A DNA stretch of 28,469 nt from a virus: positions 64,001 to 92,469 of IMG/VR virus record IMGVR_UViG_3300001097_000003; one strand, given 5' to 3'. Position 1 is the first letter of the stretch. Each line of letters opens with the position of its first letter. Under the pieces are notes generated by a model. It had not been told where the DNA came from. It ran no database searches and saw only the letters and a program-made list of their open reading frames with translations. The position numbers were made by a program, and so were the translations under genes. Shown here piece after piece: positions 1-20,946 of the stretch.

Positions 1-1490
1 TTAGTTAATTGAATTTTACTAGGTGTTATATCTCTAACAAGTCTATAATAATCTAAATATTTAGAATGATATTTTGGTAAAGGTACTATTTCAAATAAAT
101 CAGAAATATAAATATTGGGCATTGCTATATATGGTATAGGTTTAGCAATATCACTTAAATTTAATTTATTAATGATAATATAATCTTCTTCAGGTATTGA
201 ATTAATTACATAATTAGTACCTTTTTGAACACCATAATCAACATCTGTTTTTATACATTTTAAAAGTAAATTTGTATAATTATAAATATTTGGTTTAATT
301 TGAATAGCGTTAAATTGAGTAGGTTCTTTAAATAACATTGGAATATATAAACCCATATATTCATAAAATATTTCATTATAGGAATTTTTGAAGGATCGTG
401 TAAATAAAACATTCCATGTTTCTACTTGAATTTCATTATTATTGGCTTTTCTATATCCTGATCTTAATTTTAAATTATCTTCTCGTGTTGGTACTTCAAT
501 TTGAATTCCAATTCTACTATGTAAATCAACATTAGAAGAATAACTTTTAATTTTAGGATTATTTGTTATAATAGTTTCATTAAGAGCAAGTCTTTTTGGA
601 GAAATACAAGGAATATAATTTAAAATATTGTCATCGTTATCAGTTTCATTATCATCCTCATCATCAACATCATTTATTTCGCTTAAAGAATTAAGTCTAT
701 TTCCAGTATCAATAATTTTTTTTAATTTTTCTTCTCTATCTGATGCTCTAGCTAAATCCCATTCTTCTAAATCTTCTCCAAAAGATTCACTATCTCTATT
801 ATTATACTTTTTACAAACTTGTCTGTCTCTAAAATCTAAATAATTTGGTGATGAATATTCATTACCTCCTACGTTTCTTATAGTTTTATCTTTAAAACTA
901 GCGTTAGAATAATAATATCCATTTTCATGAAACCAATCTCCAAATTTTATAAAATCTGTATTGGAATTAGGAAATAAGAATACTAATCTATTAGTTGATA
1001 ATTTTGTACTAAACAATTCTTTAAAAAATTCAGGATTATCTTCTAGTAAATCCATTATTTTAGACTTACCTAAAAACTCTCTAATGAAATGATAAGTATC
1101 TGAAAACATAGAATTATGAGAACCATATGAATAAAAAGTACCATTATGAGCCATAACAGGTAAATTAGTAATAGTATGATTTTGTAATATATCAGTGGCA
1201 TTATCCGATACTGCAAATGGATGACACATATCTGTATTAATACTACCTCTATTTCCTATTCTTAAATGGACTATGAGTTCATCTCGTTTAGCAATTCTTT
1301 GATTTCTCATAGCCGCTAAAGCTTTTTTTATAGTTTTATATCCTTTACTAATATAAACTTTTTTAGTTTTATCACTTTTATATGCAAAACCAATTCCGTC
1401 ATTATTAGTAATTGAAGCTATAGTTAAACCATCTATAAATTCTTTACTATATTTATCTTTACCTTTCGGTACTATACTAATTAAGCACAT
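1..1490 (-). CDS. Class II glutamine amidotransferase-like protein (N-terminal nucleophile type), C-terminus cut by window edge
   Basis: The frame opens at the ATG at 1488-1490 and runs off the left edge without a stop, giving 496 readable codons. It begins Met-Cys-Leu-Ile-Ser, so removing Met would expose a Cys2 nucleophile, the hallmark of class II (Ntn) glutamine amidotransferases. Further family motifs are visible: HLRIG at residues 75-79, HPF at 90-92, HNG at 115-117 and a Ser-Asp-Thr at about 130-132. An acidic linker (DDEDDNETDNDD) at about residue 260 separates this domain from a C-terminal part I do not recognise. Glutamine hydrolysis to glutamate and ammonia is the family reaction; the acceptor is unknown. 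Its start overlaps the stop of the upstream amidoligase gene by 10 bases, so the two are probably translationally coupled. Confidence 0.85.
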   Translation of the reverse strand, partial: MCLISIVPKGKDKYSKEFIDGLTIASITNNDGIGFAYKSDKTKKVYISKGYKTIKKALAAMRNQRIAKRDELIVHLRIGNRGSINTDMCHPFAVSDNATDILQNHTITNLPVMAHNGTFYSYGSHNSMFSDTYHFIREFLGKSKIMDLLEDNPEFFKELFSTKLSTNRLVFLFPNSNTDFIKFGDWFHENGYYYSNASFKDKTIRNVGGNEYSSPNYLDFRDRQVCKKYNNRDSESFGEDLEEWDLARASDREEKLKKIIDTGNRLNSLSEINDVDDEDDNETDNDDNILNYIPCISPKRLALNETIITNNPKIKSYSSNVDLHSRIGIQIEVPTREDNLKLRSGYRKANNNEIQVETWNVLFTRSFKNSYNEIFYEYMGLYIPMLFKEPTQFNAIQIKPNIYNYTNLLLKCIKTDVDYGVQKGTNYVINSIPEEDYIIINKLNLSDIAKPIPYIAMPNIYISDLFEIVPLPKYHSKYLDYYRLVRDITPSKIQLT

Positions 1491-3043
1491 ACTACTTCTT
1501 TAATTGATCTTGATATTGGTAATACATCTTCTTTATAATCTAGACTTTCGTCTTTAACTTTAAAGATTTCTTTTCTTTCTCTTACATACTCAATTAATTT
1601 TTCAGCTGTTTTAGGATAAGATTTAACAATCATCAATTCTAAATTTAATTTATATTCTGTACCATTTGTATGTACATATTTACCAGCTTTAATTATATTT
1701 TTAAAATTTTCAACAAAATATACAAAAGCAATACAAATTTTAATCCAATTTCTAATTTTAGCAAAATTCAAAGTAGCTCCGTGGGGTCTAAATTCTAATG
1801 TATGAGAATTTGGAATTCCTTTAGTGTCAAATAATAATGTTACATAATTTAACCAACAATATCTTTGGGCTGTTTTATCATATCCACATTTTGATCCTTT
1901 TGGATGATTACTATTTTTATTAATTTTTGCATTAGGTCCTTCTGTATCTCTTGTACCAGCTACTTCTTGATGAATTGCATTATATAATTCTTCAATTTTT
2001 AACAAATAATCTGAATTACTAGGTGCTTCTGATAAATAATTAAATTTATCTAATAACAAAGGATTTAATTTTCTACAATAACTATTGTTTCTTCTAGATT
2101 TAGGTAACATTGTGAACAAATCTTCTTCTAGATGTTGAGCTAATAAATATGAATATACTACATCTTCTTTATTCCATTTCATTCCTCCTATGTGGACATG
2201 GACACCACATTGATGATTGATAAAACATTTATTAGATAATACTTTACAAATTTCATGAAGTTGTTTAAATCCACTATCTCCATATAATATACCTGTTACA
2301 TATTCTCCACCAGGAACATTGCCAGCTTCATCTCTCAAGGAACCATCATGTACTGCTTTAACATTTAAATCTTTTACATCAGATTCTTCAAGTCTTCCTA
2401 AACAAGTTTCTAATTCTACACCAAATGTATATCTTTTATTTTCAAGTATTAAATGAGTTAGTGAATCTACTCCCATTACTAAATTTCGATTTAAGACATT
2501 TTTACTAAGTTCATTAATATCTTTAGTATTTTTATCTATATTTGGTAATAATAACTTTTTTACATCTTGTTTGTAATAAGTATTATCAAATTTTCTGTAT
2601 GGTTTTGGTTTATCCATTGTTTTTAATTCTCTTTTAAGATAATAAGTATCAGTATTATTAATACCTAATACTAAATCATGTTTTTTAATAAATTCTTTTT
2701 TATCTAAAGGAAATACTTCTATATATTCATATCCTGAAATTGTACATATTACAACTTTGACTAAATAAGGATTTATTATATTTTCGTCTATAGTTTGATG
2801 TTTAACAGTTCCTGATAATGTACCGTAATAATCTTTAGTATTATTATCATTAATAGAAAATTGTTTTCTAGGAGCAGTATGTTTTTGTTCTAATACTAAA
2901 TCCATTATTAATTTAGTAAAATTACTTAATCCATTACTTAGTTTTAAAAAATATTCTTTAGTAATATAATCTTGAACTATATTTGGATTAGATAAATTAA
3001 ACATTATACCATCAATTTCTATTTTTTCTTCTTCTTTTATCAT
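1481..3043 (-). CDS. Amidoligase_2-type putative amide-bond ligase
   Basis: This 520-residue protein has the pattern of the Amidoligase_2 family, which belongs to the glutamine-synthetase-like COOH-NH2 ligases. The C-terminal half carries FGVELET (about 207-213), VHDGSL (231-236), GGEYVTG (245-251), CGVHVHIG (279-286), RYCWLNY (394-400) and LEFRPHGATLN (416-426). In this superfamily such Glu, His and Arg residues form the metal and ATP site used to join a carboxylate to an amine. The first 200 residues have no motif I recognise. The gene lies between two class II amidotransferase genes and starts 2 bases after the upstream stop, in a TTATG context. Substrate is unknown. The family call rests on motif order and spacing, without a profile search. 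Confidence 0.85.
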   Translation of the reverse strand: MIKEEEKIEIDGIMFNLSNPNIVQDYITKEYFLKLSNGLSNFTKLIMDLVLEQKHTAPRKQFSINDNNTKDYYGTLSGTVKHQTIDENIINPYLVKVVICTISGYEYIEVFPLDKKEFIKKHDLVLGINNTDTYYLKRELKTMDKPKPYRKFDNTYYKQDVKKLLLPNIDKNTKDINELSKNVLNRNLVMGVDSLTHLILENKRYTFGVELETCLGRLEESDVKDLNVKAVHDGSLRDEAGNVPGGEYVTGILYGDSGFKQLHEICKVLSNKCFINHQCGVHVHIGGMKWNKEDVVYSYLLAQHLEEDLFTMLPKSRRNNSYCRKLNPLLLDKFNYLSEAPSNSDYLLKIEELYNAIHQEVAGTRDTEGPNAKINKNSNHPKGSKCGYDKTAQRYCWLNYVTLLFDTKGIPNSHTLEFRPHGATLNFAKIRNWIKICIAFVYFVENFKNIIKAGKYVHTNGTEYKLNLELMIVKSYPKTAEKLIEYVRERKEIFKVKDESLDYKEDVLPISRSIKEVVCA

Positions 3044-3045
3044 AA

Positions 3046-4788
3046 TTATATAATATCTTTATCATCTTCTATTTCTTCAATATATTCATTTTCATCTTCA
3101 TCATTATCTATTATTTCTATTTCATCCATAGGAATAAAGTTTTCTAAAGTATCAACATTATATAATTGGACAATTTCGTTTTCTAAATCTTTAGCATCTT
3201 CTAACGCATCATCATACATACCACTATTTAATAATGTTACAATTCCTGTAATAGCATAATGAAGTTCTCCAATAATGTTACACATAGTTCCATAACTAAA
3301 TTGTAAATTATCATAAAATCCAATATTGTTTGGAGAAATCTTTTTTAAAGATTGACTATTTTTTAATAATTCTAAAACATCTTTTTCTTTTTCGATTTCT
3401 TCTTCATATTGCTCAATTTCTGCACTAATTATAGGTTTATTAAAATTAATTTCGCATGTTTTAGCTTTTTCTTTTAAATAATTATTAATTTCCCCTGCTC
3501 TAGCTACCCTTATACAATGAATAGGACAAGTTCCAGACTTACCTGTAATAGGCTGTTCTACAGTTATTTCTTGATTACCATATTCATATTTTTTAACTAA
3601 TAAAAATTCTTCTTTATCTGCTAAAGTATTTCCTGTTTTAGTATATGTTAATGGTTTCATTACAATAACATATTTATCAACTTGAGGAATGAAATTAATT
3701 AAATTAAATTTACTTGTTGTACAAATAATACCTTTTTCTCCTTTTTCATTTTCTACTTCAAAATATTCTGTATCTTTGTATTTAGGATCATTAGGTTTTC
3801 CAATAACAGAATACCAACTGTTTATATTTAATAACTGTTGTTTTGCAAGAAATTCTGTATCATGATTTGAAAATCCACTTATGTCACATTGTATCCAGAA
3901 GTTTTTTAAATAATGAGGTTTAACAACAGATGTGTCAAATCCAGATATATTATCTTTTTCACATCTGATCTTTGTTACATTTTTCTTTATTCTAATATAT
4001 AAATCTTTTATAGTAGCTAAAATAGTTTCTGGAAAATTACTTTTTTTATTTGGAGTATAATTTGTTTTACTCAAAATAACACCTTCTTTTATTTGATATA
4101 AAGTATTTATTTTAAATTCTTCTATATCTTCACAATTTATAGCTTCTAAACTTTGTTTTATTGAAGAAATATATAATTCTGTTTTATCAACAAAACCATA
4201 AAATAAAGGTCTTTTCTGATCATGATAACAATATAAAATATCTTCTACTTTATTATAAAATAATAATGCAGCAGCACCTTCGTATTGTTCAAGAACTCTA
4301 AGTATTTCGTCATGTTTAAAGTTTATTTCAATACATTTCGCTAATATTTGGCTATCTACATTATAGTTAGATGAATTTAATTGATACATTCTAGCTAAAG
4401 CAAGATGATTTTCTAAAGTACCATTATGAGCTAATACAATGTCTCCATATTCAAATGGGTGGGCATTATTTACTGTGTTAGTACCTACTGTTCCTGCTCT
4501 AACATGTCCTATAAGAACTCTATCGTTTTTTATTTGAGAAGTTAATCGAGGACTATTAATAAAATTTTTAGCTTCAATATTATCTTTAACTATACTTGAT
4601 TTAGGAGTAAATATTCCTGTAGCATCTCTACCTCTTTCTTGACTATTCCAATAAAGTAAAAACTTAATTTTTTCACCATCATAATCTTTAGTTCCAGAAA
4701 ATCCTGAAAGACCACATCCTAAAACTCCTGGTTTTGGTTTAAATATAAATGCTATTAAAGCAAATATTAATATAATTTCTAATATCAT
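3046..4788 (-). CDS. Class II glutamine amidotransferase-like protein with N-terminal hydrophobic segment
   Basis: This is a second class II amidotransferase, 580 residues. Family motifs are clear: CGLSGFSG with the presumed nucleophile at Cys25, RGRDATGIF (52-60), GHVRAGT (94-100), HPF (110-112), HNGTLEN (121-127) and VDSQIL (144-149). Unlike the first copy, the Cys is preceded by 24 residues including a hydrophobic stretch (about 2-16) and KPKP. A free N-terminal Cys would therefore need propeptide removal, as in PurF and glutamate synthase. No usable start codon lies nearer the Cys. The ATG overlaps the stop of the upstream small membrane-protein gene as ATGA, supporting this start. The last 40 residues are very acidic. 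The middle and C-terminal regions are unrecognised. Confidence 0.85.
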   Translation of the reverse strand: MILEIILIFALIAFIFKPKPGVLGCGLSGFSGTKDYDGEKIKFLLYWNSQERGRDATGIFTPKSSIVKDNIEAKNFINSPRLTSQIKNDRVLIGHVRAGTVGTNTVNNAHPFEYGDIVLAHNGTLENHLALARMYQLNSSNYNVDSQILAKCIEINFKHDEILRVLEQYEGAAALLFYNKVEDILYCYHDQKRPLFYGFVDKTELYISSIKQSLEAINCEDIEEFKINTLYQIKEGVILSKTNYTPNKKSNFPETILATIKDLYIRIKKNVTKIRCEKDNISGFDTSVVKPHYLKNFWIQCDISGFSNHDTEFLAKQQLLNINSWYSVIGKPNDPKYKDTEYFEVENEKGEKGIICTTSKFNLINFIPQVDKYVIVMKPLTYTKTGNTLADKEEFLLVKKYEYGNQEITVEQPITGKSGTCPIHCIRVARAGEINNYLKEKAKTCEINFNKPIISAEIEQYEEEIEKEKDVLELLKNSQSLKKISPNNIGFYDNLQFSYGTMCNIIGELHYAITGIVTLLNSGMYDDALEDAKDLENEIVQLYNVDTLENFIPMDEIEIIDNDEDENEYIEEIEDDKDII

Positions 4789-5033
4789 TTTATTTTTTTA
4801 TATAAAGGTTCATGAATAATTTCATAATTTGATTGTTTAATTGGTTGCATTATATTTCCATTAAATTTAGATACTATAGTAAATAAACCAATTAATGAAA
4901 TAGAAACTATTATAATATTACATACTAGTACTATAAGCGTATTAATAAATAAATGTTTAAATCCTATTATTTGTCTTGTAATTATTGTAGACCAACAGAT
5001 AGAGAATATTAAAAATAATATAAGTTCTTTCAT
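4785..5033 (-). CDS. Small membrane protein, two predicted membrane segments
   Basis: This 82-residue protein has a hydrophobic segment at about 3-18 and a longer one at about 29-56, followed by a polar tail rich in Lys and Glu. I do not recognise the family. Its TGA stop overlaps the ATG of the downstream amidotransferase (ATGA), so the two are probably co-translated. That partner has its own N-terminal hydrophobic stretch, hinting at a joint membrane location; this is inference. A long stem-loop lies directly upstream of the start. Confidence 0.7.
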   Translation of the reverse strand: MKELILFLIFSICWSTIITRQIIGFKHLFINTLIVLVCNIIIVSISLIGLFTIVSKFNGNIMQPIKQSNYEIIHEPLYKKIK

Positions 5034-5048
5034 ATTTTTATTTTAAAT

Positions 5049-5108
5049 AAAGAGGATAGCGGAGGATAATATTTCTATTATCTAAAGCGAACTCAGGCTA
5101 CCCTCTTT
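5049..5108 (-). promoter_or_regulatory. Nested stem-loop in the intergenic leader
   Basis: Arms 5049-5060 (AAAGAGGATAGC) and 5097-5108 (GCTACCCTCTTT) pair over 12 positions with one mismatch. Inside them a perfect 7-bp hairpin is formed by GATAATA (5065-5071) and TATTATC (5076-5082) around a four-base loop. It is the only sizeable gap in the amide-ligase operon. In the minus-strand RNA it lies just after the phiEco32-type ligase gene and just before the small membrane-protein start. It could be a terminator or attenuator, an RNA-processing site or a 5' stabiliser; the sequence does not decide between these. Confidence 0.55.
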
Positions 5109-5118
5109 AATGTTTTAA

Positions 5119-5949
5119 TTAATCAATTGTATATACTTCAGATAAAACTTGATCTAACTGAAACTTAGTTATTAGTTTGTGAGCAATAACTTTATCATTA
5201 TTATTTATAGTTTCTTGAATTACAAATTGATCTTCGTCGTTTAATTCTTTACCGCTATTGATAAAATCAACAGCCTTATCAATACCTGCAAATATAAATT
5301 TTGTTAAAGATAATGTATTAGCCCAATAATTTGATAAACCTCTATATTCAACACCATAATCTTTTATTCTAAATTCACCAGCTTTACCATACATCTTTTT
5401 TCTATCTTTATCACTATCGAGTATTAAAGAAGGTATATTAAGATATAAATCTAAAGCTCTTATTAAGTTAATAGAAGTATCATCATTAGGATTTTCATAT
5501 CCTATATGAATATGACCACCGCAAGTTCTTAGATTAGTTTTATTACTTGGAGCTTTATTCATTTGGTAAGTCCAAGCATTATAACTTGGTTCACAACCAA
5601 ATGTTTTAGCTTGATCATCTTCTAAATATTTACTATCTAATATAGCTGATGGTTGTAATACAACTTCTAATTCTGCTGGAATTATATCATTTGTATATTT
5701 AATACATTTTTGTATATTGTCATATAATTCTTTTGCGGTATTACATGCTGGTACACACCACTCAACCATTACATTATCGGTTTGTATAAAAAATCCTTGT
5801 CCTATTTCTTTATGAAGGCTTACAGGTTCATATTTACTACCGGGAATTAATCCAATAGCAGATACTATTTCTTTAGTTTCTCTATTTCTTAAAAAAGCTT
5901 CTGGATCTGAACCAATTGTTATAAGTTGTTTATTTATATTTTGTTTCAT
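5119..5949 (-). CDS. phiEco32-type COOH-NH2 ligase (type 2) family protein
   Basis: This 276-residue protein matches the phage COOH-NH2 ligase type 2 pattern, first described from phiEco32-like phages. Visible motifs are GSDPEAF (13-19), DNVMVEW (58-64), GCEPS (118-122), CGGHIHIG (143-150) and a long conserved stretch at 187-209 ending EYRGLSNYW. The GSDPE Glu and HIHIG histidine motifs correspond to the metal and ATP site of the glutamine-synthetase-like fold. The expected reaction is ATP-driven amide formation between a carboxylate and an amine, but the substrates are unknown. It is distinct from the Amidoligase_2 protein encoded two genes downstream, so the operon has two members of this superfamily plus an ATP-grasp enzyme. 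Confidence 0.9.
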   Translation of the reverse strand: MKQNINKQLITIGSDPEAFLRNRETKEIVSAIGLIPGSKYEPVSLHKEIGQGFFIQTDNVMVEWCVPACNTAKELYDNIQKCIKYTNDIIPAELEVVLQPSAILDSKYLEDDQAKTFGCEPSYNAWTYQMNKAPSNKTNLRTCGGHIHIGYENPNDDTSINLIRALDLYLNIPSLILDSDKDRKKMYGKAGEFRIKDYGVEYRGLSNYWANTLSLTKFIFAGIDKAVDFINSGKELNDEDQFVIQETINNNDKVIAHKLITKFQLDQVLSEVYTID

Positions 5950-5959
5950 AAAATTATTA

Positions 5960-6451
5960 TTAATTTAACAGAAAATTTTTATAGTATTGAACCCAATCTC
6001 CTGATTCAACTTTATCTGTTTTATTTAAAACTTCTATTTCGTCAATTTCTTTTTGATCTTCAACATTAGCTAAATAAATTATACACTCTGTTTTTAATGT
6101 AAAAGATTGTGTTTCAATATTAATTGGAAGTTTATGTCTTGTATATCCTGCGTTTATTTCCATATTATCTATGATCATAAAAGCTTTATCAGATATTCTT
6201 AAAATATCAAAAACTATTGTTTCACTTGGTTTATTTGTAAATACAGCCATAGGATAAGCTCCTACATTATACATACTATAACCTCTCAATTTTGTAGTTT
6301 CAACATAACTAATAGCAAGATCTTTTATTTGAAATAAATCTCTTATTCGATTATAATTATACTGATCTTTTCTAAGAGTTCCGTAAGCTAATAAATATAG
6401 TTCTTTATGATCTTGAATTTTTTTATTCTCAATGATTATATTATTTTCCAT
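5960..6451 (-). CDS. Gamma-glutamylcyclotransferase-like (AIG2/GGCT fold) protein
   Basis: This 163-residue protein has the GGCT/AIG2 signature: YGTLRKDQ at 23-30 forms the typical substrate loop, and DNMEINAGYTR at 95-105 supplies the expected catalytic Glu98 and the following GYxR motif. The length is normal for the family. Enzymes of this fold release a gamma-glutamyl group as 5-oxoproline or cleave gamma-glutamyl-amine isopeptides. It lies between a ligase and a gamma-glutamyl hydrolase-like gene with gaps of only 6-10 bases, which argues that it trims or recycles the product of the ligases. Actual substrate is unknown. Confidence 0.88.
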   Translation of the reverse strand: MENNIIIENKKIQDHKELYLLAYGTLRKDQYNYNRIRDLFQIKDLAISYVETTKLRGYSMYNVGAYPMAVFTNKPSETIVFDILRISDKAFMIIDNMEINAGYTRHKLPINIETQSFTLKTECIIYLANVEDQKEIDEIEVLNKTDKVESGDWVQYYKNFLLN

Positions 6452-6457
6452 AAAAAA

Positions 6458-7240
6458 TTAATCCCAAATATCATGCATATAAAATTCTGATGAATCTACT
6501 GTTGTTAATTCTTCTTCTAAATCATCATCAAATATCATTAATTTACTTAACTCAGTACCTTTATTGATAACTTCTTCTAAAGTATTATTAATAAGACGAT
6601 AAGTTAACATTTTTAATATTTTTACTAATTGACTATTAGTACTCATCATTTCTGGATGACCTTGTATTCCTAAAGCATTTAATTCTTTATAGTAAACTAA
6701 TTCTGGTTCCATAATAATATTATCATTATCTTTTTCAGTAGGTAATAACATTTTTTGGTCACTACCATTTAAATGATAATTAGATAAACCTTCTGCCCAA
6801 GCTAATACTTTATATTTATTAGATTTCATACAAAATGGAAATTGTAATTGATGATGAAGTGAGTTTGTTTCAACAATTGTTCCATCCCAGAATTTAATTG
6901 TATGAGCATAAGGATGGGACATATCTTGTACTAAAGTTCCTCCTGCTAATGCACATAACATTTGAGCACCTCTGCAAGTTCCAAATATAGGTAAACCTAA
7001 TTTAACAGCTTTGTGAGTATATTCAATTTCTAAGGTATCTCTTTTATCATTAAAATGAGTTCTTGATCCTCTATTATTATTATATATATTAGGATTAATA
7101 TCTTCTCCTCCTGTTAACCATACAAGATCCGCTTCTTCTATATTTTCTACTAGATTACCTTCCATCCAACTAGCATAACCTTTTTGTGATCCTATTACGA
7201 ATATATTTATTTTATTTTTGTCTTTTTTAGTTTTACTCAT
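6458..7240 (-). CDS. Class I glutamine amidotransferase-like / peptidase C26-like gamma-glutamyl hydrolase
   Basis: This 260-residue protein shows the class I (Triad) GATase pattern of the PuuD-like C26 subgroup: TGGEDINP (43-50), a nucleophile elbow GTCRGAQ with Cys89, NSLHHQ (126-131) and GIQGHPEM with His195 and Glu197 completing the triad. Family members hydrolyse gamma-glutamyl amides, for example gamma-glutamyl-GABA. Its position in the operon points to hydrolysis of a gamma-glutamyl intermediate or delivery of ammonia. The last 50 residues are acidic and outside the core fold. The start ATG is followed by a Lys-rich stretch, and no better start is visible. Confidence 0.88.
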   Translation of the reverse strand: MSKTKKDKNKINIFVIGSQKGYASWMEGNLVENIEEADLVWLTGGEDINPNIYNNNRGSRTHFNDKRDTLEIEYTHKAVKLGLPIFGTCRGAQMLCALAGGTLVQDMSHPYAHTIKFWDGTIVETNSLHHQLQFPFCMKSNKYKVLAWAEGLSNYHLNGSDQKMLLPTEKDNDNIIMEPELVYYKELNALGIQGHPEMMSTNSQLVKILKMLTYRLINNTLEEVINKGTELSKLMIFDDDLEEELTTVDSSEFYMHDIWD

Positions 7241-7244
7241 ATTT

Positions 7245-8102
7245 TTATTTTATTATGTCTTTCCAGACTTGTAAAAACTCTGGTGTTTTACCTAATTGAT
7301 TATATAATTCTGTTACTTCAATTCTTTTTAATTTTTCATCAAATGCTTTGCTTTGTGAATATTCAAATTTATTACAATAAGGTACTAATCCACTATTTGA
7401 ATAAGTACTTTCAATAAGAAAATTATCGTTTTCATTAACTATTACTTTATCATAAAATTCCTCTATAGTAAAGTATTTCATTAATCCTTGAGTAGAAAAT
7501 ATACAATATCCTGGTAACTTTTTCATTAAAGGAAACTCTATAAATTCATTCATAATAAAACAATCCCAAGGAGTCATTTCAGGATATCGTATATGAAGTT
7601 TAAAAGCTTGTTTTAATACTTGACTACCAGCACTATTTATTAAATATCTAGCTAAAAATAAATGAAGTTTTCTGTCTTTATCGTTTATTCCTTTAGTTAA
7701 ATCTATATCTAAAGTAATAGCTTTTGTTTTTTCAGCACAATCGAAAGCAAGAATAAACTTATTATCATATTCTAATTTATTGTTAAAATAAGTATCTTCT
7801 ACTCTTTTTATATTTAAAGTAGGTATCCATTCATTTAACCATTTTAAATATAAATCAATTTCATCATTATTAAATATTAACTTATCATAATAATTATTAT
7901 AAGTATTAATTTGATATTCTTTATTTATATAATAAAGATTTAAAAAATGTTCTGGTAAATAATATCTAATTATATGATCTTTACCTTCGCTTAAGTTTAA
8001 TTTAGAATTTGTATATTCTCCAAAACAATCATATCTTCTTGATATTTGAATAATTTTGTTAGTACTTTTTTTAATAACGTCAAAATTAGTTCTTGGTCTC
8101 AT
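7245..8102 (-). CDS. Uncharacterised protein of the amide-ligase operon
   Basis: I do not recognise this 285-residue protein. It is soluble, rich in Tyr, Asn and Leu, without signal peptide or membrane segment. Scattered features such as FDCAEKTKAITLDIDLTKG (about 119-137) and the Trp-Asp-Cys in PWDCF (about 178-182) do not form a motif known to me. It overlaps the ATP-grasp gene by 17 bases upstream and is 4 bases from the C26-like gene downstream, so co-expression is very likely. It may be a substrate carrier, accessory subunit or further enzyme of the pathway. Confidence 0.75.
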   Translation of the reverse strand: MRPRTNFDVIKKSTNKIIQISRRYDCFGEYTNSKLNLSEGKDHIIRYYLPEHFLNLYYINKEYQINTYNNYYDKLIFNNDEIDLYLKWLNEWIPTLNIKRVEDTYFNNKLEYDNKFILAFDCAEKTKAITLDIDLTKGINDKDRKLHLFLARYLINSAGSQVLKQAFKLHIRYPEMTPWDCFIMNEFIEFPLMKKLPGYCIFSTQGLMKYFTIEEFYDKVIVNENDNFLIESTYSNSGLVPYCNKFEYSQSKAFDEKLKRIEVTELYNQLGKTPEFLQVWKDIIK

Positions 8103-9000
8103 ATTTTCTTTTTAATATTTTAGGAATTTCTTCTATATATTTTTTAGAAGTAATTTCTCCAAAAGAAGGAGCTGAATTAATTTCTACTACAATAAAATCA
8201 GGATCTTCTCTGTTTTTATCTTTATTATTATGGGAAGACTGAATTCTTAAGTCTACCGCACCAAAATCTAATCCTACTGCTTTTAAAGCATTAACAGATT
8301 CTGTAATTACATTATCCCAATTAACTGGTTTATCGAAATCTGGATTTTCTTCTACAATCCAGTTAGAATTTGAATCATTACGAAACCATCGCTTATCTTC
8401 GGGAGTATCTTTCCTAAGCATTTTTCTACAAGTATAGAAACAACCTTCTTCTGTAACATGGAGTCTATATTCTCTATTATAGTTATAAAATTTCTCAAAA
8501 ATATATTCAGATATGTTTTTATATTTTAAACAATTTTCTAATTCTTCTTGAGAGTTAATTAATGTATTACCTCTACCTCTACTACCAAATATATGTTTAA
8601 CTACTATAGGATAAGGTAATTCATTACTACGTATATTTTCTATAACTTCTTCTCCTTCTTCATCAATAAATTTTCTTTCAAAAGGTATATTTTGTAAAAT
8701 ATGATTATGTTTCCACCAATCAGCAGTTTTAACATTGTTTTCAGTAAAACACTGTTTCATTAGTAGTTTATTACTACTGTTTTTAATAGCTTGTATTGTA
8801 TTACATTCTATTCTTGTACCCCCATTTGTAACACTATCCTGTATATCAGTAATAGATCCTAGTCTTACTATTGATCTAAATGGTAAAAGAGCTAAGGTTT
8901 TATTCTTAGCTCTTAATATGCTGTGAGTTGGATGACGTGAACAAACCAAAGGTCTAAATAAAGTAACTACTTTACGCTTTGATGCTAGTTTTTGAATCAT
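8086..9000 (-). CDS. ATP-grasp ligase (RimK-like)
   Basis: From the ATG at 8998-9000 this is 304 residues; a TTG 12 bases upstream is less likely. The ATP-grasp fold is shown by PYPIVVKHIFGSRGRG (129-144, the Lys plus Gly-rich nucleotide loop), IFEKF (167-171), EYRLHV (177-182), FGAVDL (246-251) and VVEINSAPSF (271-280), whose Glu and Asn bind magnesium. Enzymes of this type activate a carboxylate as acyl-phosphate and couple it to an amine, often adding amino acids such as glutamate to peptides or proteins. It is the third amide-bond-forming enzyme of the operon. It overlaps the upstream gene by 29 bases. Substrate is unknown. Confidence 0.88.
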   Translation of the reverse strand: MIQKLASKRKVVTLFRPLVCSRHPTHSILRAKNKTLALLPFRSIVRLGSITDIQDSVTNGGTRIECNTIQAIKNSSNKLLMKQCFTENNVKTADWWKHNHILQNIPFERKFIDEEGEEVIENIRSNELPYPIVVKHIFGSRGRGNTLINSQEELENCLKYKNISEYIFEKFYNYNREYRLHVTEEGCFYTCRKMLRKDTPEDKRWFRNDSNSNWIVEENPDFDKPVNWDNVITESVNALKAVGLDFGAVDLRIQSSHNNKDKNREDPDFIVVEINSAPSFGEITSKKYIEEIPKILKRKYETKN

Positions 9001-10285
9001 TTTTATTATCAATTAATTTTAATTCTTTAGCTCTAAATCTAAATACTGATCCTTCTTGTGTAGAACACATAATAATATCTAATTGTTTAGTTTTAGAGTT
9101 TTTACATATTCTTTTAGATTGAGGATTTGGTTTAATATTTTGAATAGTAAGAATTGTATTAGTATTTAATCTTGGTGTATTTACTTTAATTTTTACATTA
9201 GAACCTATGACCATAGTTTTATCTTTTGGTATGTTATATCCCTTAATATCAGGAAATATGAAACTTACATCATTCATAACAAACTTAAGTTCGCCTGTTT
9301 TACCAGTTTCTTCATTTGTATAAGGTATTATAATATAATAAGTTTCTCCTATTTTTTTGGAGATACTCATTTTTATTTCATAATCTTTTACAATAGTATC
9401 GACAAGTTTATTTTTAATAAAAGATAATCCAAATACTTTACCAGATAACAATCCGCTTTCTATTTTAATAGGAAATTTATTTAATATTTCTAAAGTATTA
9501 TTTTTATTATTTCTTATAAAATCAGAAACTGGTATTTTAGTAAAATAATTAGATTTAAATTTAAATTTTATTTTTTCTTCTTCACTATTAAGTTTATAAT
9601 TATTGTTATTTATAACATAAACTAATATTTCAATAACACTTGTCTTTGATTTATTTGATCTATAATAATTATAAAGCTCATCAATATTATTAAATATTTT
9701 ATTATGAATAACATATCCTAAAACTATTGCAGATACTGTAGGTTTATAATCTTTTCTAAAATTTTTATTATCTTTAATATCTATAATAGTATTAATTGGA
9801 AAAATATTTAAATTTTCAGATGCTGCTAAAGAATTACAATATTTTTTTCTATAATAAGAAAGTAAATTATTACAAACACTTAAATTAATTTCTCCCGTAG
9901 TTAATTTAGTTTCTATTTTATTTTTTAAATTATTTATTTTTAATCCTTTTTCTCTCATATCAGAATCATCTTCTATATATACTTTAGTTTTACTATTTGA
10001 ACTTTTAACAACTTGTGTACGAGAAGCACCAAATATATCATTAAGATATTGTGGAAATTCAACAAAATTATTTGCTATTTCTATCTCTGCTATTTGTTCT
10101 TCTCTTCCTCTGAGTCTATTATTTATTTCTTCTTGAACTATATTTCCACCCTGTATATTTCTATCAAATTCTCTTTGTATTTTAATTCTTTCTACAGCAA
10201 TATGTATGTTATTTTCGTTCCAATTAATATGTGGTAAATCTGCTACAGCTACAACATTATCATTTTCATTACCATTTTCCGGCAT
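8972..10285 (-). CDS. Uncharacterised 437-residue protein
   Basis: I do not recognise this protein. The N-terminal part (about 1-90) is polar and contains a likely coiled coil with Arg/Glu repeats. The middle (about 110-330) is Lys- and Asn-rich. The C-terminal third has alternating hydrophobic residues typical of beta structure (for example VIGSNVKIKVNT and TILTIQNIK). There is no signal peptide or membrane segment. It lies between the DNA polymerase gene (10 bases) and the ATP-grasp gene (overlap), linking the replication gene to the amide-ligase operon. A nucleic-acid-binding or scaffold role is possible but not shown. Confidence 0.75.
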   Translation of the reverse strand: MPENGNENDNVVAVADLPHINWNENNIHIAVERIKIQREFDRNIQGGNIVQEEINNRLRGREEQIAEIEIANNFVEFPQYLNDIFGASRTQVVKSSNSKTKVYIEDDSDMREKGLKINNLKNKIETKLTTGEINLSVCNNLLSYYRKKYCNSLAASENLNIFPINTIIDIKDNKNFRKDYKPTVSAIVLGYVIHNKIFNNIDELYNYYRSNKSKTSVIEILVYVINNNNYKLNSEEEKIKFKFKSNYFTKIPVSDFIRNNKNNTLEILNKFPIKIESGLLSGKVFGLSFIKNKLVDTIVKDYEIKMSISKKIGETYYIIIPYTNEETGKTGELKFVMNDVSFIFPDIKGYNIPKDKTMVIGSNVKIKVNTPRLNTNTILTIQNIKPNPQSKRICKNSKTKQLDIIMCSTQEGSVFRFRAKELKLIDNKNDSKTSIKA

Positions 10286-19731: not shown

Positions 19732-20175
19732 TTATAGTTTTTTAATAATATTATCATTATTATGTAATACACTATCACCTATTTTATATTTATTACTTTT
19801 TGTAATAAACTCAATGGTTCCTTCGTATTCTATATCTTCAACAATAATAGTATATTGATTATAACTACTGACTTGTCCTCCAGTCATTTTACCTACACCA
19901 GCACTTGCTACAGCACCTATTGCTACTTTAGTAAATGATGGTCTTGATGATAAAAGATATGATCCTATACCGCCTATAACAGCACCAGTTACAGCATTGT
20001 CATTTGATTCATCTTTATATACAGTTTCAATTTGTATATCTGTTACAATACCGGTATCTATTACGCTTTGATTTTGATAATAAGTATTATTTGTATTACC
20101 TTGATTACAACTTATTACTAATAATATAGTAAATATTGATAGAAATAAAGATAATATTAAAATTCTATTTTTCAT
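19732..20175 (-). CDS. Predicted lipoprotein with glycine-zipper segment
   Basis: The N-terminus has a basic start, a hydrophobic core and the lipobox-like LVISC with Cys23, so lipid attachment is expected. After a Tyr/Asn/Gln-rich linker comes a Gly/Ala-rich stretch, AVTGAVIGGIGSYLL (about 60-74) and AIGAVASAGVGKMTGG (about 86-101), typical of glycine-zipper proteins such as the SlyB/Rcs-type outer-membrane lipoproteins. The C-terminus is beta-like. A phage-encoded envelope lipoprotein could block superinfection or alter the host surface; that role is inference. It lies immediately downstream of the tmRNA gene on the same strand. Confidence 0.8.
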   Translation of the reverse strand: MKNRILILSLFLSIFTILLVISCNQGNTNNTYYQNQSVIDTGIVTDIQIETVYKDESNDNAVTGAVIGGIGSYLLSSRPSFTKVAIGAVASAGVGKMTGGQVSSYNQYTIIVEDIEYEGTIEFITKSNKYKIGDSVLHNNDNIIKKL

Positions 20176-20213
20176 AATTGTTTATTTATGTTATTGTTTA
20201 ATTAATATTTTAA

Positions 20214-20241
20214 TAAGTCTGGTATATTTCAACCAGACTTA
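20214..20241 (-). terminator. Strong hairpin after the tmRNA coding piece
   Basis: TAAGTCTGGT (20214-20223) and ACCAGACTTA (20232-20241) form a perfect 10-bp stem with an 8-base loop. It follows the 5' half of the permuted tmRNA in the minus-strand transcript and is the natural candidate for its 3' boundary or terminator. The following bases are A/T-rich but not a clean U-run, so read-through into the lipoprotein gene is possible. Confidence 0.6.
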
Positions 20242-20244
20242 AAT

Positions 20245-20515
20245 AGGATTTAGCTCCTAATGGCTGATTAGGCAGCAAGTCTAACTTGCATTCCAGTCAT
20301 TGGTATAACCTTTGCGGTTATTGTTAAATAATTACTCTACTATACTTACTTATATCCTGTCAATTCCGGTCGCCCCCATATTGTCATAAGCGATCATTAA
20401 TCAATCTTATGTATTAATTCCCACAATTGGAATAGTGGTGGAGGCGGAGAGATTCGAACTCTCGTCCAAACATACTTTAGATATAGTGTCAACATAACTA
20501 TTTGTTTTTAATATT
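20245..20515 (-). ncRNA. ssrA: Circularly permuted tmRNA (transfer-messenger RNA)
   Basis: On the minus strand the 3' half comes first. It has TTTGGACGAGAG and a T arm GAGAG-TTCGAAT-CTCTC, then CGCCTCC, A and CCA ending at 20436. After a 58-base linker the 5' half begins at 20377 with GGGGGCGACCGGAATTGACA, the tmRNA-type 5' end and D-loop region. GGGGGCG (20371-20377) pairs with CGCCTCC (20440-20446) over 7 bp. The third pair is G-U, the alanyl-tRNA synthetase identity element. GATATA in the 5' half can pair with TATATC upstream in the 3' half (helix P2). The 5' half then encodes a tag ending LAA and a stop. The linker holds two hairpins (20417-20433 and 20385-20411), as expected for a spacer removed to give a two-piece RNA. 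The outer ends (about 20245 and 20515) are estimates. It rescues stalled ribosomes with SmpB; none is seen here, so host SmpB is presumably used. Confidence 0.92.
20268..20315 (-). other. tmRNA tag reading frame
   Basis: Starting at a GCA resume codon (20313-20315) the frame reads AKVIPMTGMQVRLAA and stops at TAA (20268-20270). Hydrophobic C-termini ending LAA are the proteolysis signal of bacterial tmRNA tags. At 15 codons it is longer than many. The resume codon lies in the loop of a perfect 6-bp hairpin, ATAACC-GCAAA-GGTTAT (20305-20321), which is unusual because this segment is normally unpaired. An upstream resume codon cannot be excluded. Confidence 0.8.
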
Positions 20516-20688
20516 TTAATAAACTCTTCCACCTAATTAGACAGAAGAGTTTTAATAAGGGAATAATGGTTAATGTATCCTTATTGTATTATATACCACC
20601 AAGTTTGAGCAAACCAATACTTATTATATGCTCTTTCTTCAATAGACTTTTCTAATGTCGGACTTTGTTATGGTGGAATATATTAATG
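20516..20688. other. Non-coding leader upstream of the tmRNA
   Basis: A 9-bp perfect hairpin is formed by AAACTCTTC (20521-20529) and GAAGAGTTT (20544-20552), just upstream of the tmRNA acceptor piece in the minus-strand RNA; it may mark its 5' processing boundary. Further upstream, near-perfect inverted repeats around GGTGG/CCACC (about 20591-20682) enclose a 28-codon stretch without a start codon whose end reads KYWFAQTWWYIIQ. I cannot tell whether that is a gene fragment or structured RNA. Confidence 0.4.
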
Positions 20689-20825: not shown

Positions 20826-20946
20826 CTGTACAGGAAGGAGTCGAACCTTCACGATTGTTTAGGGATTTCTGTAACCATCACATAGATCTACAAAAACAAT
20901 CATATCCGAGACGAGGATACGTGTCTGCCAATTCCACCACCGTACA
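20826..20946 (-). tRNA. Aberrant class II (leucine-type) tRNA or tRNA-like RNA
   Basis: The minus strand has a full class II layout: acceptor TGTACGG/CTGTACA (one G-U pair), a leucine-style D arm (GTGGAATTGGCAGACAC), anticodon arm TATCC/GGATA, a very long variable arm and a T arm GAAGG-TTCGACT-CCTTC. The anticodon loop is TCGTCTC: position 33 is C, not the near-universal U, and the triplet would be GTC (Asp), which does not fit a leucine body. The variable arm, closed by ATTGTTT/AAACAAT, is about 47 bases, far above the usual 10-20. No CCA is encoded. It may be a decayed tRNA, a tRNA mimic, or an unconventional decoder. Confidence 0.7.

Follow-up and report, generated by a model that had tools for sequence, protein, structure and literature searches.

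The crAss-like phage studied here carries a circularly permuted tmRNA gene, in which the T arm and acceptor lie 5' of the coding piece on the minus strand. We regard it as highly probable that this locus is a permuted ssrA of a compact lineage, which probably arose by its own permutation from a one-piece tmRNA of the Bacteroidota type, and whose product is predicted to be processed, charged and used in ribosome rescue. The window, the 28,469-nucleotide stretch that was analysed, comprises positions 64001-92469 of a 92,469-base IMG/VR virus record. Gene order, pairing, covariation, tag frame and class features are read from the sequence; the host, the processing, the charging, the rescue and the separate origin are inferred.

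The Rfam model tmRNA_permuted (RF04321) matches over its full length at positions 20499-20268 of the minus strand with 68.3 bits (E 2e-11 for the window), well above its gathering score of 47 bits. ARAGORN, which is independent of Rfam, calls a tmRNA* (permuted) gene with the tag AKVIPMTGMQVRLAA at about 20178-20529, an extent with an arbitrary 3' end that overlaps the leader of the next gene. A standard one-piece tmRNA is ruled out for the locus, because the corresponding model (RF00023) reaches 24.5 bits, below 47. An earlier note, made from the letters of this DNA, had proposed a permuted tmRNA and recommended covariance models as a check; both the permuted model and ARAGORN bear the proposal out.

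The locus opens with a P2-type strand 5' of the T arm (about 20476-20505, minus strand, as are all elements that follow), which pairs with the coding piece in a two-piece cofold and forms helix 1 of the alignment described below. The acceptor piece (20436-20475), delimited by the 3' tRNA domain of ARAGORN and by covariation, consists of the T arm GAGAG-TTCGAAT-CTCTC, the 3' acceptor strand CGCCTCC, the discriminator A and an encoded CCA that ends at 20436. A spacer of 58 nt (20378-20435, measured between the ARAGORN domains), which is expected to be excised, separates it from the 5' end of the coding piece, GGGGGCGACCGGAATTGACA (20350-20377; ARAGORN 5' tRNA domain and RF04321 alignment). The latter holds the 5' acceptor strand GGGGGCG, which pairs with CGCCTCC over 7 bp, G3-U70 included. 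The tag reading frame (20268-20315) encodes AKVIPMTGMQVRLAA, ends in LAA plus a stop and has GCA as its resume codon, as assigned by ARAGORN and by the xKVI tag start in relatives. A possible 6-bp hairpin, ATAACC/GGTTAT (20305-20321, from cofold prediction), would present the resume codon in its loop, and a hairpin 3' of the tag, AAGTCTGG...CCAGACTT (20215-20240, from sequence and fold), may mark the 3' boundary of the coding piece. All elements named in the earlier note, from the T arm, CGCCTCC and ACCA to the start of GGGGGCGACCGGAATTGACA at 20377, the 7-bp acceptor pairing and the tag frame, are found where it had placed them. The gene downstream is a 147-aa lipoprotein-like ORF with the lipobox ISC (19732-20175, from the ORF list and translation), and a lipoprotein gene likewise lies 3' of the tmRNA in cr10_1. 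Upstream, at 20826-20946 on the minus strand, there is a tRNA-like element missed by ARAGORN and Rfam, with a class II D arm, a T arm, a long variable region, a 7-bp acceptor (TGTACGG/CTGTACA) and an anticodon loop TCGTCTC without U33.

Covariation supports this architecture. In an alignment of both pieces from 12 phages, with the spacer removed, RNAalifold recovered the T stem, the acceptor stem and the inter-piece helix. Standard pairs occupy 96.6% of the cells in these three helices, compared with 72% in shuffles and 45-53% in slid versions, and compensatory changes occur at 13 of 17 pairs, a level reached by none of 500 shuffles. The T stem and acceptor are paired in 100% of cells, so that the acceptor pairing, on whose conservation in relatives the earlier note had made its reading depend, is fully kept; G3-U70 is present in 12 of 12 sequences. 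The inter-piece P2-type helix is paired in 88% of cells and shows changes on both sides at all five of its pairs. Since the pairing exceeds that of shuffled and slid controls and is maintained by compensatory changes, the permuted tmRNA is not a chance resemblance.

The window phage is a crAss-like phage (Crassvirales). The terminase, portal and major capsid protein of the record match crAss-like families (PHROG); the capsid protein matches crAss-like phages with at best 49% identity, the closest being Crassvirales such as cr118_1, and it has further relatives in phages of Bacteroides, Flavobacterium and Cellulophaga. A tree of capsid proteins places the window phage beside three environmental contigs and away from the gut Suoliviridae. 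A Bacteroidota host, as the earlier note had supposed, is well supported by relationship, given the Crassvirales capsid, portal and terminase and the presence of the compact gene in Chryseobacterium phage MA9V-3 and in contigs related to phages of Bacteroides, Cellulophaga and Tenacibaculum.

Judged by their sequence features, the permuted tmRNAs of Bacteroidota phages are a distinct compact class. The 47 permuted tmRNA genes compared, all of them from phage contigs or records, comprise 23 compact genes, in which the distance from the coding-piece start to the resume codon is 56-68 nt, and 24 others, in which it is 79-144 nt. The motif TTGA occurs in 22 of the 23 compact genes versus 3 of the 24 others, and AND/ANE-type tags are absent from the compact genes (0/23) but nearly universal elsewhere (23/24). 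CCA is encoded by 3/23 versus 23/24, a count biased by the fact that G005, G006 and the window's twin contig came from CCA-requiring patterns; scans with patterns lacking this requirement returned both types with the same clean split. Compact genes have TTTGAC in place of TTCGAC, with the exception of MA9V-3, which has TTCGAC. The window gene, with its AKVI tag, AATTGAC and a resume codon reached 62 nt into the coding piece, lacks the AND/ANE tag, the TTCGAC and the 5' segment of at least 79 nt by which alpha-, beta- and cyanobacterial two-piece tmRNAs are recognised; it does encode CCA, like proteobacterial permuted genes. Its tag start belongs to an xKVI subset comprising AKVIPM (window), DKVIPM (G005), AKVITL (L239), VKVINL (L264), GKVIQM (L242), SKVINL (L243, read by eye) and GNVIDI (MA9V-3). 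In every member the tag frame closes with alanine and a resume region (AATAAC or similar) is retained, and the frames are varied and open. Judged from length, the compact form apparently has no room for the pseudoknot PK1, which typically precedes the tag in two-piece coding pieces (PMC3985003). Hairpins akin to that at 20305-20321 are predicted in other xKVI members. A conserved resume-codon hairpin was nevertheless rejected, as stem length (mean 4.9 bp in compact versus 4.3 bp in other permuted genes) is mostly not beyond shuffles.

How widespread is the compact form? A one-off gene in the window was rejected, because many relatives carry permuted tmRNAs. RF04321 scores above the cut-off in cr130_1, cr53_1, cr114_1, contig G035 and Chryseobacterium phage MA9V-3, ARAGORN makes permuted calls in cr115_1, cr60_1, cr52_1, cr125_1, cr50_1 and cr10_1, and, with the cr53_1 gene as query, homologues turned up in another 13 gut records. 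The search of related phages for the same gene order, proposed in the earlier note, thus succeeded in many Crassvirales. Several GenBank/RefSeq records label the gene 'transfer-messenger RNA, SsrA', and none of them contains the word 'permuted'. The suggestion that the gene is unprecedented therefore falls, the more so as other phages with permuted tmRNAs are known (PMC9004378). MA9V-3 was isolated on a known Bacteroidota host. Because none of its proteins is detectably shared with the window phage, this type of gene spans different groups of Bacteroidota phages. Compact genes were also found on a contig related to Bacteroides phages (L249) and on one related to phages of Cellulophaga, Tenacibaculum and Croceibacter (L243). 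No permuted tmRNA was found in Bacteroides phage DAC19, a relative of L249.

Closer to the window phage, the gene is evidently optional in the clade: the closest large relative (G002) has an ordinary one-piece tmRNA, and in the near relatives G004 and G013 no tmRNA was detected. The one-piece gene (L071, G002:69491-69861) has an unusually long tag of 27 residues, GKTIKLSETTFNDIMRQVSNVELEMAA. It occupies the same accessory region as the permuted gene of the window, in the same orientation; however, the flanking genes are not homologous, so that tight synteny was rejected and we do not claim a switch in place. A minus-strand cluster of amidoligase, glutamine amidotransferase-like and RimK-like ATP-grasp genes (window positions 1481-9012) is partly conserved in all three relatives.

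The spacer varies from 17 to 213 nt among relatives. It contains a tRNA-His in cr114_1 (L083:3044-3116), a tRNA-Tyr in contig G029 (L177:1558-1630) and a tRNA-like stretch in cr130_1 (L172), and in cr50_1, cr53_1 and cr60_1 a tRNA or tRNA-like element lies 3' of the coding piece. In four loci (L213, L216, L218 and L219, from cr113_1, cr56_1, cr4_1 and cr6_1, respectively), the acceptor part appears to be interrupted at or near the T loop, and an annotated endonuclease or other ORF adjoins the interruption on the opposite strand, an arrangement resembling a group I-type intron in a permuted tmRNA. Two further genes (L177 of contig G029, and L221) have an altered T arm, possibly through degeneration or a T-loop insertion. 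At L079 (cr53_1), the major capsid gene contains an in-frame stop codon, consistent with the reassignment of stop codons that is known from phages of this kind.

From where did the compact class originate? Bacteroidota chromosomes are known to carry a one-piece tmRNA, and Bacteroides ihuae, the sole control genome here, matches RF00023 and not RF04321. One-piece tmRNAs of this type (GENNYALAA tags) have a 5' segment of 94-96 nt, TTTGACA and no CCA, and the tRNA-like domains of some compact genes are nearly identical to theirs; the domain of contig G035 is close to that of L224. The short 5' segment, TTTGAC, the mostly absent CCA, the tags that are never AND/ANE and the Bacteroidota-like tRNA-like domain together favour a separate permutation, and we infer that the ancestor of the compact class was a one-piece tmRNA of the Bacteroidota type, permuted in an event distinct from those of alphaproteobacteria, betaproteobacteria and cyanobacteria, with loss of PK1. 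We would put at about even the chances of the fuller scenario, whereby Bacteroidota phages hold a fourth bacterial-type permuted lineage in which a small resume-codon hairpin possibly took the place of PK1 while the hosts kept the one-piece form. Independent evolution, one of two routes raised by the earlier note, is thus favoured by the class features, whereas the tree of the short tRNA-like domain (56 columns, mostly unresolved) agrees with it only weakly: AU tests on this weak tree speak against a single clade of all permuted genes (p 0.036) and against a grouping of the window gene with AND-tag permuted genes (p 0.0497), and the AND-tag genes themselves do not form a clade in it. Alternatively, the window gene may have been acquired from a permuted tmRNA of proteobacteria or cyanobacteria, or of their phages, and later have become shorter and diverged. 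Its encoded CCA, a 58-nt spacer resembling theirs and a second-best Rfam match to beta_tmRNA (32.8 bits) would fit such a transfer, and phages have moved genes of this kind between host groups (PMC9004378). We nonetheless consider it unlikely, given that the gene has no AND/ANE tag start, has TTGAC for TTCGAC and a 5' segment shorter by about 20 nt, that tag, motif and length separate the two classes almost without exception, and that the tRNA-like domains nearest to its own are those of one-piece genes of the Bacteroidota type. When bacterial genomes were scanned for the CCA-encoding TTGACA form, none was found.

How might the permuted gene work? We envision that host tRNA-processing enzymes cut the transcript near 20436, at the acceptor end, and before the GGGG at 20377. 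Once the 58-nt spacer had been removed, the acceptor and coding pieces would remain joined through the acceptor stem and the P2-type helix; the tRNA genes within the spacers of cr114_1 and G029 fit processing by tRNA enzymes. G3-U70 is the alanine identity element and would direct charging with alanine. SmpB was found in none of five phage records, the window phage's included, which implies that the phage tmRNA would use host SmpB. Stalled ribosomes might then be rescued, and the added tag, ending in RLAA, would lead to proteolysis; such rescue during infection is plausible. For the proposed cutting into two RNAs that stay paired, the Caulobacter two-piece tmRNA serves as the model (PMC3985003). 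It is also conceivable, if quite improbable, that the RNA acts as a decoy that sequesters host SmpB or alanyl-tRNA synthetase and thereby blocks host trans-translation. The apparent lack of room for PK1 would suit such an inhibitor, and mycobacteriophage DS6A has a tag-less tmRNA for which a role of this kind has reportedly been suggested. A tmRNA-like domain by itself does inhibit tmRNA (PMC4131195, PMC11915505), yet every member of the compact class has retained the resume region and an open, alanine-ending tag frame. That the gene is decayed, or a chance resemblance with a non-functional product, we hold to be extremely improbable: its absence from G004 and G013 and the degenerate look of the T arm in G029 and L221 could be read in this way, but the window gene has kept all seven acceptor pairs, its T stem, G3-U70 and an intact tag frame, covariation is strong, and the same gene type recurs in contigs of several metagenomes.

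To our knowledge, the tmRNA gene has been permuted only a few times, and the cases known come from mitochondria and three groups of bacteria. A compact class in Bacteroidota phages, including the crAss-like phages of the human gut, would add an origin of permutation seated in viruses, and suggests that these phages invest in ribosome rescue or tagging. It could be studied in the cultured pair of MA9V-3 and Chryseobacterium. Databases currently enter such genes as plain 'SsrA', with form and class unmarked. As a kind, permuted phage tmRNA is known: one survey lists 133 unique tmRNA genes of phages, and 53 of these are two-piece (PMC9004378). For the compact form of Bacteroidota phages, we found no published description in the open literature, where permuted tmRNA is likewise unreported, as far as our searches show, for crAss-like phages and for any other phages of Bacteroidota; a large survey of crAss-like genomes from 2021 does not mention tmRNA.

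Several known systems invite comparison. The family described by RF04321 (PMC11915505), whose model recovers the window gene above its cut-off, comprises the two-piece tmRNAs of alphaproteobacteria, betaproteobacteria and cyanobacteria and shares the order of acceptor piece, spacer and coding piece, the 7-bp acceptor stem with G3-U70, the T arm, the inter-piece helix and a tag ending in alanine. The window gene differs from it by a 5' segment about 20 nt shorter, a TTTGAC-type motif, a tag other than AND/ANE and a host group that has a one-piece tmRNA of its own. Permuted tmRNAs are likewise phage-borne in the OM43 phage Melnitz, in pelagiphages and in cyanophages, but those are of alphaproteobacterial or cyanobacterial types and belong to phages of marine hosts (PMC9004378), whereas the window gene is of the Bacteroidota type. 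The compact permuted form itself is shared with cr114_1, cr115_1, cr60_1, cr52_1, cr125_1, cr50_1 and cr10_1, where the gene is annotated SsrA, and with MA9V-3, which also has the VI tag core and a spacer of similar length (59 nt), and whose tag ends in LEVAA. Unlike the window gene, those of gut Crassvirales and MA9V-3 do not encode CCA, some of their spacers hold tRNA genes, and the tags of the gut genes are YTR(I/L)AA-like. Finally, the one-piece tmRNAs of Bacteroidota and their phages (GENNYALAA type, phi38:1/Calle, FpV4, G002) resemble the window gene in the sequence of the tRNA-like domain and in TTTGACA, and Gly-started tags occur in many members; they differ in the order of their parts, in a 5' segment of 91-112 nt with room for PK1, and in being a single RNA.
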